Origin: an uncultured Caryophanales bacterium
Lineage (GTDB): Bacteria; Bacillota_I; Bacilli_A; RF39; UBA660
Reading direction: 5' to 3'
Assembly: GCA_946544685.1 (NCBI GenBank)
Contig: CAMNML010000004.1
Span: 1 to 64,000, forward strand
DNA length: 64,000 nt
Shown: positions 20,703 through 50,710 of the stretch, one piece after another
Layout: each line of letters opens with the position of its first letter
How positions within the stretch are numbered: position 1 is the first letter of the stretch
The notes under the pieces: generated by a model
What the model saw: the letters and a program-made list of their open reading frames with translations, nothing else
Databases searched by the model: none
What the model was told of the DNA's origin: nothing
Program-made: the position numbers and the translations under genes

Positions 20703-20828
20703 TTTTTTACCGTAACAAATAAGCCTTACTATAGACAGTAAGGCTTTAAAGTTTTTAACTTAAAAGTTCCTCGGTAGGAAATATTAAGTGTTTCCACTCC
20801 TACTGTCTACGGTACTATTTTTTGCAAC
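20703..20828 (-). ncRNA. L10 ribosomal-protein leader (autoregulatory)
   Basis: The 5' leader of rplJ contains the conserved GTAGACAGTAGGAGTGG ... TTTCCTACCGAGG elements of the L10 leader motif, followed by a 10-bp hairpin (AAGCCTTACT/AGTAAGGCTT). L10(L12)4 binds this RNA and represses its own operon. Confidence 0.85.
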
Positions 20829-20834
20829 GAATTA

Positions 20835-49056: not shown

Positions 49057-49087
49057 GGATTTGTTTATATTAATTTTGTGTTAATTA

Positions 49088-49116
49088 TTGACTTCTTGTA
49101 TTTGTTATGTTAGAAT
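49088..49116 (+). promoter_or_regulatory. small-RNA promoter, unit 1
   Basis: TTGACT, 17 bp, TAGAAT. Identical boxes and spacing occur in all three units. Confidence 0.8.
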
Positions 49117-49122
49117 GTATGT

Positions 49123-49242
49123 AGTGAAGCAATACTTCATATAATAAAAAAGGATATGTCTGAAGTCGTGTTCAGACGTTTCCTCTAAATGTGGAATGCA
49201 TCTGATAACAACATTAGTTGAAATCAGATGCTTTTGTTTTTT
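49123..49242 (+). ncRNA. structured small RNA, unit 1 (candidate antitoxin RNA)
   Basis: About 120 nt from the predicted start to a T-rich tail. Hairpins in order: GAAG/CTTC near the 5' end; GTCTGAA-GTCGTG-TTCAGAC (49158-49177); a terminator GCATCTGAT/ATCAGATGC (49198-49231) followed by TTTTGTTTTTT. The 5' arm of the terminator (GGAA-T-GCATCTGAT) is complementary to the leader of the convergent peptide mRNA over 13 bp with one bulge. No coding frame with a ribosome-binding site was found. Confidence 0.7.
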
Positions 49243-49263
49243 AAGCAAGAGTCCGTAACTAAA

Positions 49264-49347
49264 CTATTTTTTAAATAGTAAAGCTAGTAATGCAAATATT
49301 ATGACAAATAAGCAAGATATTTTTTTTTTAGAATCATTTCTTGTCAT
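49264..49347 (-). CDS. 27-aa hydrophobic peptide, unit 1 (candidate type I toxin)
   Basis: MTRNDSKKKISCLF then a hydrophobic stretch (VIIFALLALLF) ending KK. Strong Shine-Dalgarno AAAAGGAGGA. One short transmembrane helix flanked by Lys/Arg, as in toxins that depolarise membranes. It is homologous to the 35-aa peptide of unit 3 (shared M-T-R/K-x-D-S/T, then LFVxIFxLL). Its transcript faces the small RNA and, lacking its own terminator, would run into the RNA's antisense. Confidence 0.7.
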   Translation of the reverse strand: MTRNDSKKKISCLFVIIFALLALLFKK

Positions 49348-49420
49348 AAATATCATCCTCCTTTTGAGTTATGTAATTTAAGCATGACTGGAGGAAGCAT
49401 CTGATTTTTCAAACATATCC
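49348..49420 (-). promoter_or_regulatory. peptide mRNA leader, unit 1, with SD-sequestering element
   Basis: The leader begins GGATATGTTTGAA, resembling the same element in the small RNA. It continues with AAATCAGATGCTTCCTCC. TCCTCC (complement of 49390-49395) can pair with the Shine-Dalgarno GGAGGA (complement of 49356-49361), and ATCAGATGC pairs with the small RNA. Confidence 0.6.
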
Positions 49421-49427
49421 TAATATA

Positions 49428-49456
49428 ATTATAACTTGTAATTAATTTGTGGTCAA
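49428..49456 (-). promoter_or_regulatory. peptide promoter, unit 1
   Basis: Minus strand TTGACC, 17 bp, TATAAT. Confidence 0.8.
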
Positions 49457-49483
49457 TATAAAATATTAATTTTGTGTTAATTA

Positions 49484-49512
49484 TTGACTTCTTATGTTTG
49501 TTATGTTAGAAT
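49484..49512 (+). promoter_or_regulatory. small-RNA promoter, unit 2
   Basis: TTGACT, 17 bp, TAGAAT. Confidence 0.8.
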
Positions 49513-49518
49513 GTATGT

Positions 49519-49640
49519 AGTGAAGCAATACTTCATATAATAAAAAAAGGATATGTCTGAAGTGGCATTCAGATGTTTTCCAAAAATCATTTGGTGGAAC
49601 ACCTGAAATCAACAGTAGTTGAAATCAAGTGTTTTCTTTT
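49519..49640 (+). ncRNA. structured small RNA, unit 2 (orphan)
   Basis: Same plan: hairpin GTCTGAA/TTCAGAT (49555-49574), terminator arms ACACCTGA/TCAAGTGT (49599-49632, one mismatch) enclosing TCAAC-AGTA-GTTGA, then TTTCTTTT. The target-facing arm differs from units 1 and 3 (ACACCTGA rather than GCATCTGA). The peptide gene and its -35 are deleted; only AGCAATATAAA remains of the far end. Confidence 0.65.
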
Positions 49641-49718
49641 GCTTTTATGCAAGAACTACAATGCTATAAGTTTAAAAACTATAGCAAGCAATATAAATTA
49701 TTAATTTTGTGTTAATTA

Positions 49719-49747
49719 TTGACTTCTTATATTTGTTATGTTAGAAT
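49719..49747 (+). promoter_or_regulatory. small-RNA promoter, unit 3
   Basis: TTGACT, 17 bp, TAGAAT. Confidence 0.8.
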
Positions 49748-49753
49748 GTATGT

Positions 49754-49871
49754 AGTGAAGCAATACTTCATATAATAAAAAAGGATATGTCTGAAGTCGT
49801 GTTCAGACGTTTCCTCAAAATTGGGTTGCATCTGAAATCAACAGTAGTTGAAATCAGATGTCTTTTGTTTT
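49754..49871 (+). ncRNA. structured small RNA, unit 3 (candidate antitoxin RNA)
   Basis: Hairpin GTCTGAA-GTCGTG-TTCAGAC (49789-49808) and terminator CATCTGA/TCAGATG (49829-49860) around TCAAC-AGTA-GTTGA, with tail TCTTTTGTTTT. Its last bases overlap the stop codon of the convergent peptide, so the two transcripts overlap at their 3' ends. Confidence 0.7.
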
Positions 49872-49977
49872 ATATGCCAATAATTACTTTTGCACTTAGT
49901 ATTACTACTAGTACAAGCAATATAAAAATTACAACAAAAAGTTTTGATATAAGTTTACTTGTATCTTTTTTTGTCAT
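49870..49977 (-). CDS. 35-aa hydrophobic peptide, unit 3 (candidate type I toxin)
   Basis: MTKKDTSKLISKLF followed by a long hydrophobic helix (VVIFILLVLVVILS) and AKVIIGI. Shine-Dalgarno AAAGGAGGA, 6 nt from ATG. A single transmembrane segment with a Lys-rich N-terminus. Paralogue of the unit 1 peptide. I do not recognise it as Fst, TxpA, BsrG or the holin-like toxin family. Confidence 0.75.
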   Translation of the reverse strand: MTKKDTSKLISKLFVVIFILLVLVVILSAKVIIGI

Positions 49978-50052
49978 AATATCGTCCTCCTTTTTGCTTA
50001 TGTTGTTTTTTGTGAGGTTGGAGGAAAACATCTGATTTTTCAAACATATCCT
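49978..50052 (-). promoter_or_regulatory. peptide mRNA leader, unit 3, with SD-sequestering element
   Basis: Leader GGATATGTTTGAAAA, then TCAGATG (pairs with CATCTGA of the RNA) and TCCTCC (complement of 50020-50025), which can pair with GGAGGA (complement of 49985-49990). Confidence 0.6.
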
Positions 50053-50058
50053 AATATA

Positions 50059-50087
50059 ATTATAACTTGTAATTAATTTGTAGTCAA
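50059..50087 (-). promoter_or_regulatory. peptide promoter, unit 3
   Basis: Minus strand TTGACT, 17 bp, TATAAT. Confidence 0.8.
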
Positions 50088-50138
50088 TATAAATTATTAA
50101 TTTTGTGTTAACATTTTAAAAGCAGTTTTATCTGTTCT

Positions 50139-50699
50139 TTATTTTACCCGTTCTTGTAGTTGTTTTATAATAGCATTTATATCTACAGTTGTAAAGTCGG
50201 TTGTGTCTATTATGATTTCATTATCATCTATTTTAAATTCTCTTGATTTTTCGTGTGTTTTTTTAAAATTTTCATAGTCATCAAACATTCCATTTGATAC
50301 AAGTCCTGAATGTCTTTCATCAGAGTGTTCTCTATTTAAAAATCTTTTATGTAATACTTCTAAGTCTGCTTCAAATCTTATTGTTATACATTTACAATTA
50401 TATTTATCTAGTAGGTTTTTTATAACTGGTATTGCTTCTTTTCCAAAGTTACTCTCAGCTATTATTGGTAATCCAACTTTTAGATGTTGTTCAATAATAT
50501 AGTAAAATATATCATAGCTATTTTTTCCTATTTTTCTTTTAGATTCATAGTCTGTATCATTATTGTTCATTGAGTCATATAGAACTTCTTTTATTTCATC
50601 CTTGCTGAAAAAAGGTATTTTTAATTCATTTGATATTTTCTTTCCATAGCTAGTTTTTCCTGCTGCTAAGTCTCCTGTAATAATTATTATTGTATTCAT
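50139..50699 (-). CDS. Small P-loop kinase (AAA/zeta-like fold)
   Basis: 186 aa. Walker A TGDLAAGKTSYGKK, then FFSKDEIKEVLYDS and an Arg-rich lid (HKRFLNREHSDERHSG). Resembles small-molecule or nucleoside kinases of the AAA_33/shikimate-kinase-like type. Substrate unknown. Start ATG at 50699 follows AAAGGA. It begins 12 bp after the lysozyme gene, so it is probably co-transcribed. Confidence 0.8.
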   Translation of the reverse strand: MNTIIIITGDLAAGKTSYGKKISNELKIPFFSKDEIKEVLYDSMNNNDTDYESKRKIGKNSYDIFYYIIEQHLKVGLPIIAESNFGKEAIPVIKNLLDKYNCKCITIRFEADLEVLHKRFLNREHSDERHSGLVSNGMFDDYENFKKTHEKSREFKIDDNEIIIDTTDFTTVDINAIIKQLQERVK

Positions 50700-50710
50700 T
50701 GTTTTTCCTT

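Follow-up and report, generated by a model that had tools for sequence, protein, structure and literature searches.

Facing small RNAs and membrane micropeptides in a triplicated bacterial locus: probable type I toxin-antitoxin modules of a new family

What is encoded by three short direct-repeat units standing in a row, each with an RNA on one strand and two of them with a micropeptide on the other? The units lie at 49068–50111 of the window, a stretch of 64 kb (64,000 nt of contig CAMNML010000004.1, from an uncultured Caryophanales bacterium) that was analysed as a whole, and they are placed between rpsO-pnp and a kinase-like gene. A first-pass annotation, made from the letters of the DNA, had proposed a multi-copy type I toxin-antitoxin system. 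According to our analysis, each full unit is probably a type I module of a new family, in which a par-like layout would be combined with a hok-like closure of the mRNA. The anatomy of the units, their conservation, the covariation of the RNA, the coding selection on the peptide, the complementarity of the parts and the order-wide spread in many copies emerge directly from the computation.

The repeat units and their RNA

The units are bounded by four exact copies of the 17-mer TATTAATTTTGTGTTAA, whose start positions (Table 1) give unit lengths of 396, 235 and 396 bp (units 1 and 3 as first described), and the repeat family D1 (123 nt) has three copies of 100, 75 and 98%. The promoters of the first-pass annotation are also located as consensus matches, TTGACT-17-TAGAAT on the plus strand of all units and TTGACC/TTGACT-17-TATAAT on the minus strand of units 1 and 3. 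Since the region holds 21 promoter-like sites vs 11.4 expected, such a match alone is weak evidence.

On the plus strand, each unit holds a small RNA (sRNA) of ~125 nt with three predicted hairpins, namely a small 5' hairpin (HP0), a long one (HP1) and a terminator, and the folds of RNAs 1, 2 and 3 are more stable than those of shuffled sequences (z −5.6, −3.0 and −5.2). The structured RNA of ~120 nt that had been annotated thus stands on fold and covariation; its intrinsic terminator is absent from the terminator scan of the region and is supported by the folds and covariation. On the minus strand, units 1 and 3 have a promoter match, a leader, the Shine-Dalgarno (SD) motif AGGAGG upstream of ATG, and open reading frames (ORFs) of 27 and 35 amino acids (aa), again as annotated; the two peptides align with each other, and in unit 3 an in-frame TTG start would yield a 57-aa form. 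Unit 2 has kept the RNA without peptide, leader or minus-strand promoter, and a remnant of the far end is left (repeat D4, 72%). The terminator scan lists two minus-strand terminators, each made of HP1 antisense and a U-tract, which we take as the probable ends of the peptide mRNAs.

To describe the RNA family, a covariance model (R1) was built from a seed of nine RNAs with N padding, the hairpins being aligned by hand because MAFFT misaligned them. In the window, R1 gives three strong matches, all at this locus, while the other matches have E > 2 or fall on these palindromic RNAs in antisense. Within the seed, pairing is kept in 93.0% of 287 cells (slid controls: 32–38%), and 18 of 33 pairs have changed on both sides. 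A further 98 distinct rows are 91.3% paired, with 25 of 33 pairs changed on both sides, though these rows were chosen and aligned by R1 itself and are fitted to the model. It is confirmed that the units are beyond chance and that their layout recurs in ~100 copies in other genomes, which is the conservation in relatives whose absence the first-pass annotation had listed among its refuting conditions.

The spread of the RNA follows one order. R1 matches at E ≤ 0.01 are found in 276 of 385 genomes drawn from the order of genome G007, where the copy counts per genome are floors because nine candidates were scored in each; the copy number reaches 13 in a genome of ~1.2 Mb. In a sample of the class, 33 of 395 genomes match at E ≤ 1e-4, and 32 of the 33 belong to the same order. 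The sole match seen outside it (L268, in G561) lies near a contig end, and G561's order matches in 1 of 43 genomes; this case may be a transfer or a mis-binning. We take the sampled order to be GTDB order RF39, which would fit the small genomes, the 28% GC and the Spo0A gene. That order is described in PMC10868615. The nearest relatives of the window's pnp are metagenome-assembled genomes of uncultured 'Tenericutes', 'Bacilli' and 'Erysipelotrichaceae', with a best identity of 80%.

Among 15 relatives, a search with the unit finds homologous loci with convergent peptides (L081, L083, L084, L085, L086 and L088) and an RNA without evident peptide (L082); the rpsO-pnp stretches of 15 relatives hold no module. 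Besides, divergent peptides of KKD type or similar face hairpins that R1 misses or barely sees at L211, L212, L215, L216, L219, L222 and L223, and the family is probably wider than counted. As for known RNA families, no Rfam family reaches its curated threshold at the module, and only tRNAs and one L10 leader reach thresholds at all; MicC, SCARNA14 and others surface far below threshold and were rejected.

The facing peptide and its mRNA leader

R1 was applied to 122 loci besides the window, and after overlaps and one duplicate were dropped, 145 RNA copies (115 loci and the window) remained, a set biased to R1-like copies because the loci are the best R1 matches. Of the 137 copies with at least 250 nt downstream, 109 are faced by an ORF of 20–45 aa that has a basic start, contains a hydrophobic stretch and is preceded by an SD-like motif. 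The same search gives 0/137 on the sense strand, 0/127 upstream on both strands, and a mean of 0.05 (maximum 1) in 20 rounds of dinucleotide shuffling. The count of 109 and the controls were both obtained under a relaxed SD rule, adopted on seeing GGTGG in the main group; under the stricter rule the count is just 34/137. One of the 109 (L180, MKYIRC...) is probably in the wrong frame, and several of the 28 copies without an ORF carry broken remnants on reading. Chance in AT-rich DNA is rejected by the shuffles, the sense and upstream controls and the covariation.

The commonest peptide, MTKREFSQFIIILLLFLVVIILLLK, represents the main group, and 76 distinct coding sequences of this group show a ratio of non-synonymous to synonymous substitution rates (dN/dS) of 0.18. 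The main group is under purifying selection and is selected as coding.

That the peptides lie outside known families, as first annotated, agrees with all the libraries searched. The Pfam and NCBIfam scans of 26 peptides bring up MotB_plug (E 0.018, one peptide) and SecE (E 0.01, two peptides), both rejected as hydrophobic-segment noise; PHROGs and PADLOC scans of five peptides give no fitting family; and solved structures offer two designed channels (E 0.14 and 0.7). An origin from phages or plasmids was rejected as all records fall short of covering 80% of the query, with short matches, while a search of viral contigs with three exact patterns of 20–25 nt gave 0 matches, which is little informative on diverged copies.

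The peptide gene and the sRNA stand tail to tail with a predicted overlap of ~105 nt, and cofolding of mRNA and sRNA gains −93 and −98 kcal/mol in units 1 and 3. An A-rich linker precedes HP1, its 12 nt holding at least 8 A in 141 of 145 copies, and the mRNA terminator is taken to be HP1 antisense followed by the antisense of this linker. The leader of the mRNA has two arms: arm A repeats the 5' arm of HP1, and arm B repeats the 3' arm of the sRNA terminator. Because they repeat arms of the sRNA hairpins, both are complementary, in nested order, to the mRNA's own 3' end. Our first idea, that the leader chiefly pairs with HP1 of the sRNA, was replaced by such a fold-back, because the arms are wrongly ordered for one duplex but nest with the 3' end of the mRNA itself.

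For arm A, all 12 positions can pair (G-U allowed) in 91 of 104 loci, and the arm is identical to the sRNA arm at 12/12 in 64 of 104. The mean number of pairable positions is 11.8 at the own locus vs 7.0 across groups, the own figure being favoured by a small choice of offset. Where the leader and RNA differ, changes preserving a G-U pair are more frequent than the opposite kind, at 37 to 10 in arm A (24 to 10 with distinct pairs counted once, p 0.02) and 28 to 4 in arm B. For prediction of the fold-back, 32 of 103 mRNAs were folded, that is, all 12 outside the main group and 20 main-group members taken at random. Of the 30-nt leader, a fraction of 0.77 is paired to the final 110 nt of the mRNA, compared with 0.24 for shuffled and 0.31 for group-swapped leaders, and the fold-back exceeds each control in 31 of 32 mRNAs. 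The predicted pairing of the SD window is 0.86 vs 0.71 with a shuffled leader, and is higher in 35 of 36 cases. In addition, arm B fits the terminator 5' arm of its own sRNA (−16.6 kcal/mol, vs −11.0 for other sRNAs; 0 of 20000 permutations as good) among 16 representatives that we chose from 106. The energies of whole leaders separate the groups less: −21.6 for own, −20.1 for same group and −16.3 for other groups in 19 representatives.

Loss of parts and rival explanations

To see the layout in a sample not chosen by score, we have used the first 40 genomes drawn (G016–G055). The RNA is found at E ≤ 0.001 in 24 of them, with 121 copies and at most 13 in one genome. Matches to the peptide profile are tail to tail with an sRNA in 53/60 cases at E ≤ 1e-5, 60/70 at 1e-4 and 64/79 at 1e-3. 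Of the seven unpaired peptides at 1e-5, four are at a contig end (one of these with a cut RNA), two face, on reading, hairpins that R1 does not recognise, and one is altered and faces an RNA cut by an insertion. At L208 and L220, on reading, an insertion-like sequence apparently cuts the sRNA near the peptide stop.

From the RNA side, 78 of the 121 copies pair with a listed peptide match, and 41 of the remaining 43 were examined, the two others being also at contig ends. Among the 41, an ORF is present in 18, of which 15 were accepted and three are doubtful (L235, L241 and L264); L233 and L250 are also open on reading, and four copies are at contig ends. In total, 20 of 115 assessable RNAs lack a peptide and 1 of 56 assessable peptides lacks an RNA (Fisher p 0.002, with a sorting made partly by eye). 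Unit 2 (49464–49698) is of the former type, antitoxin-only with an intact RNA, and such copies make up ~1/6 of those assessable; they are candidates for anti-addiction copies.

On the points that can be computed, then, the multi-copy type I system first proposed is borne out: there is covariation in the RNA, coding selection on the peptide and a match between the leader and its own sRNA, and the peptide genes decay where the RNA stays.

Several observations weigh against this reading. One of the folded mRNAs, L196, shows no fold-back. The G-U bias of arm B is not significant with each pair counted once (9 to 4, p 0.27), and 21 of 53 differences in this arm are transversions. The own sRNA comes first for only 5 of the 16 representative leaders, and for L086 it comes 15th of 16; the window's group and the main group, MTKRE, cross-pair well, so that the leader-sRNA specificity is weak there. 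Any leader-sRNA contact must be partial because arms A and B are wrongly ordered for one continuous duplex. With weaker E-values, the frame stays open at L214, L220 and L221 next to an sRNA that is damaged or hard to recognise; this argues against a strict dependence, unless protection comes in trans from other copies. Finally, the copies are related, and the p-values therefore overstate their independence.

Of the other explanations, the one that survives best, though we consider it improbable, is a micropeptide of the membrane that is no toxin, such as a regulator of stress or envelope silenced by its cis-antisense RNA. Some small membrane peptides are indeed regulators, and a regulator would give the same anatomy and a peptide under purifying selection. 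In our judgement, however, up to 13 copies in a 1.2-Mb genome, sRNA-only copies in 20/115 vs peptide-only in 1/56 and a double lock on the mRNA are in keeping with type I toxins, and a useful regulator would hardly be expected to show them.

Much less probable is a selfish repeat, in which a small mobile element spreads by its structured RNA and the peptide is secondary. Multiple and tandem copies, the absence from the rpsO-pnp stretches of relatives, several copies at contig ends and the same-strand tRNA genes upstream of modules would all suit it. But homology within genomes mostly runs from 13–93 nt before the sRNA to 250–360 nt past its start, near both promoters (shorter in some pairs, longer in tandem copies), and separate constraints act on the peptide, the leader and the RNA. 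We would give the least credence to an sRNA acting chiefly in trans on other genes with the peptide mRNA as its sponge or decoy, for although sRNA-only copies persist with a recognisable structure, in each group the leader arms follow the sRNA to which they are linked, and 53/60 peptide matches have the tail-to-tail layout.

The tRNA genes deserve a description of their own. For 117 sRNA copies the upstream sequence reaches 500 nt or more, and among these a tRNA gene lies within 500 nt upstream at 29 loci (L093, L096, L081, L097, L100, L101, L104 and others). These tRNAs share the strand of the sRNA in 42 of 42 cases, and the nearest one mostly lies 77–91 nt before the model start, while 0 of 124 copies have a tRNA gene 250–750 nt downstream. 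A trailer, AGATTGATAnnAAACTCG, joins tRNA and module; it also occurs without a module in 13 of 15 sites fetched, often with a T-run at its end, and a GTCAATTTAGAAAACACACTTGCATATTGTC-like stretch recurs beyond trailer sites both with and without a module. The tRNA trailer looks like a hot spot.

Table 1 Features of the three repeat units in the window, with the basis of each
Feature	Position	Strand	Basis
Boundary repeat 1 (TATTAATTTTGTGTTAA)	49068..49084	.	sequence
Boundary repeat 2	49464..49480	.	sequence
Boundary repeat 3	49699..49715	.	sequence
Boundary repeat 4	50095..50111	.	sequence
sRNA 1 promoter	49088..49116	+	consensus match
sRNA 1, predicted antitoxin, approximate ends	49119..49241	+	R1 match 49123-49243, 90.2 bits; fold z −5.6
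sRNA 1 HP1; antisense and U-tract = predicted mRNA terminator	49152..49183	+	terminator scan, fold, covariation
sRNA 1 terminator hairpin	49198..49231	+	repeat listing, fold, covariation
Peptide mRNA 1 promoter	49428..49456	-	consensus match
Peptide mRNA 1, predicted, 286 nt, 105-nt overlap with sRNA 1	49137..49422	-	ends inferred
mRNA 1 leader arm A, nearly equal to HP1 5' arm, complementary to mRNA 3' end	49408..49421	-	
mRNA 1 leader arm B, identical in sequence to sRNA terminator 3' arm	49395..49407	-	
Peptide 1 Shine-Dalgarno AGGAGG	49357..49362	-	sequence
Peptide 1, 27 aa, predicted toxin	49264..49347	-	ORF, family alignment
Peptide mRNA 1 predicted terminator	49158..49177	-	terminator scan
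sRNA 2 promoter	49484..49512	+	consensus match
sRNA 2, antitoxin-only copy without peptide gene	49515..49644	+	R1 match 49521-49644, 92.7 bits
Peptide-gene-end remnant, unit 2	49662..49697	-	D4, 72% to 49891-49926
sRNA 3 promoter	49719..49747	+	consensus match
sRNA 3, predicted antitoxin, approximate ends	49750..49871	+	R1 match 49754-49873, 86.1 bits
Peptide mRNA 3 predicted terminator	49789..49808	-	terminator scan
Peptide mRNA 3, predicted, 286 nt, 104-nt overlap with sRNA 3	49768..50053	-	ends inferred
Peptide 3, 35 aa, predicted toxin	49870..49977	-	ORF, family alignment
Peptide 3 Shine-Dalgarno AGGAGG	49986..49991	-	sequence
mRNA 3 leader arm A	50039..50052	-	sequence repeat
mRNA 3 leader arm B	50025..50038	-	sequence repeat
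Peptide mRNA 3 promoter	50059..50087	-	consensus match

Elsewhere in the window, the gene adjoining the locus (50139–50708, minus strand) is P-loop kinase-like (AAA_33 4.5e-7, CPT 2.6e-5, and a weak Zeta_toxin at 0.12), and a ribosomal protein L10 leader is found at 20708–20830 on the minus strand (78.9 bits).

Known type I systems, proposed mechanism and meaning

The par/Fst systems have convergent promoters, a small membrane peptide and direct repeats that serve as a second RNA-RNA contact, with an intramolecular stem over the SD and a sequestered 5' end (PMC7472228). Compared with par/Fst of pAD1 and its chromosomal kin (RNA I/RNA II), the modules here are alike in the convergent promoters (consensus matches in the window; a best −10 candidate was found for each of 109 leaders, some of them poor), in direct repeats predicted to allow a second contact between the RNAs, and in an SD predicted to be sequestered in the leader. 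They differ in that no shared bidirectional terminator is predicted, as the mRNA seems to pass the terminator hairpin of the sRNA and to end at a second one, and in an sRNA of ~125 nt with three hairpins vs ~40 nt. The PXXXG(C) motif, the conserved Trp and the charged C-tail of Fst are absent, on reading, from the 26 aligned peptides, of which one has a Trp; the Pfam and NCBIfam scans place no Fst profile among the peptide matches, and Rfam gives no fitting match. Of the par/Fst likeness first annotated, the layout holds, while the strongest feature, the complementarity of the leader to the mRNA 3' end in the manner of hok and AapA, had been missed.

The full-length hok mRNA closes by a 5'-3' fold-back (PMC8167048, PMC6733600). 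Such a fold-back is predicted here too, with the difference that the sRNA lies opposite the 3' end and not opposite the leader. The Hok peptide is about twice as long as the peptides here, and Hok homology was not found with the HokA profile (best E 0.12, 1 of 26 peptides). The antitoxin RNAs of txpA/RatA and bsrG/SR4 in Bacillus are 3'-overlapping antisense RNAs in Firmicutes as well, with longer peptides of other sequence, and the RNA here has no Rfam match. The aapA/IsoA systems of Helicobacter have an antisense sRNA, a long-distance 5'-3' lock with SD hairpins, and several loci per genome (PMC6733600, PMC8167048). The modules here resemble them in the antisense sRNA, the predicted lock with SD hairpin and the several loci per genome, and differ from them in lock arms that copy two hairpin arms of the sRNA; Pfam, NCBIfam and Rfam gave no AapA/IsoA match, whether or not these libraries hold that family being unchecked.

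By the tests made, the modules are par/Fst-like in layout and hok/aapA-like in the predicted closure of the mRNA, and members of neither. As two defining par/Fst features, the shared terminator (by prediction) and PXXXG, are lacking and no hok membership is seen, we have classed them as type I modules of a new family. For Tenericutes, type I systems are on record already (PMC12390103). The best reading is that the family is new when set against Pfam, NCBIfam, Rfam, PHROGs and PADLOC, though it may sit among these Tenericutes systems. In the titles and abstract openings of the type I literature we have found no such family, and nothing on toxin-antitoxin in RF39, while two papers found for type I systems and antisense RNA in Mollicutes are unrelated to judge by title and abstract; this search did not extend to the type I database.

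From the above we infer transcription, toxicity, 3' processing and neutralisation as follows. The minus strand would give an mRNA of ~285 nt for a one-helix membrane peptide of 25–35 aa, the putative toxin, and the plus strand a three-hairpin antitoxin RNA of ~125 nt, tail to tail with it over ~105 nt. The full-length mRNA would be inert, with leader arms A and B paired, nested, with its own 3' end and a hairpin over the ribosome-binding site. The leader would be freed once the 3' end is shortened, and the sRNA could then pair with this leader and the remaining 3' part, so that translation is blocked or the mRNA is exposed to RNase III. Once fresh sRNA is lost, a surviving mRNA would make the membrane peptide.

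More tentatively, the whole order may host a large and churning population of an unknown type I family, with up to 13 modules per 1.2 Mb and subfamilies that have their own pairing codes. The leader would copy two hairpin arms of the antitoxin, so that one pair of sequences both locks the mRNA and targets it; antitoxin-only copies would provide immunity to other modules, and many modules would sit downstream of tRNA genes. Overall, the majority of the genomes sampled from this order carry the family, with many copies in each small genome, and ~100 natural variants are available. Few phyla have yielded reports of type I systems so far, which probably go under-detected on account of their very short peptides and RNAs (PMC12390103). 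R1 supplies a search model for annotating genomes of this order, and the family opens to testing the evolution of the lock-and-antisense RNA design, the reasons why so many copies are retained in a reduced genome, and a role of the antitoxin-only copies as anti-addiction modules.

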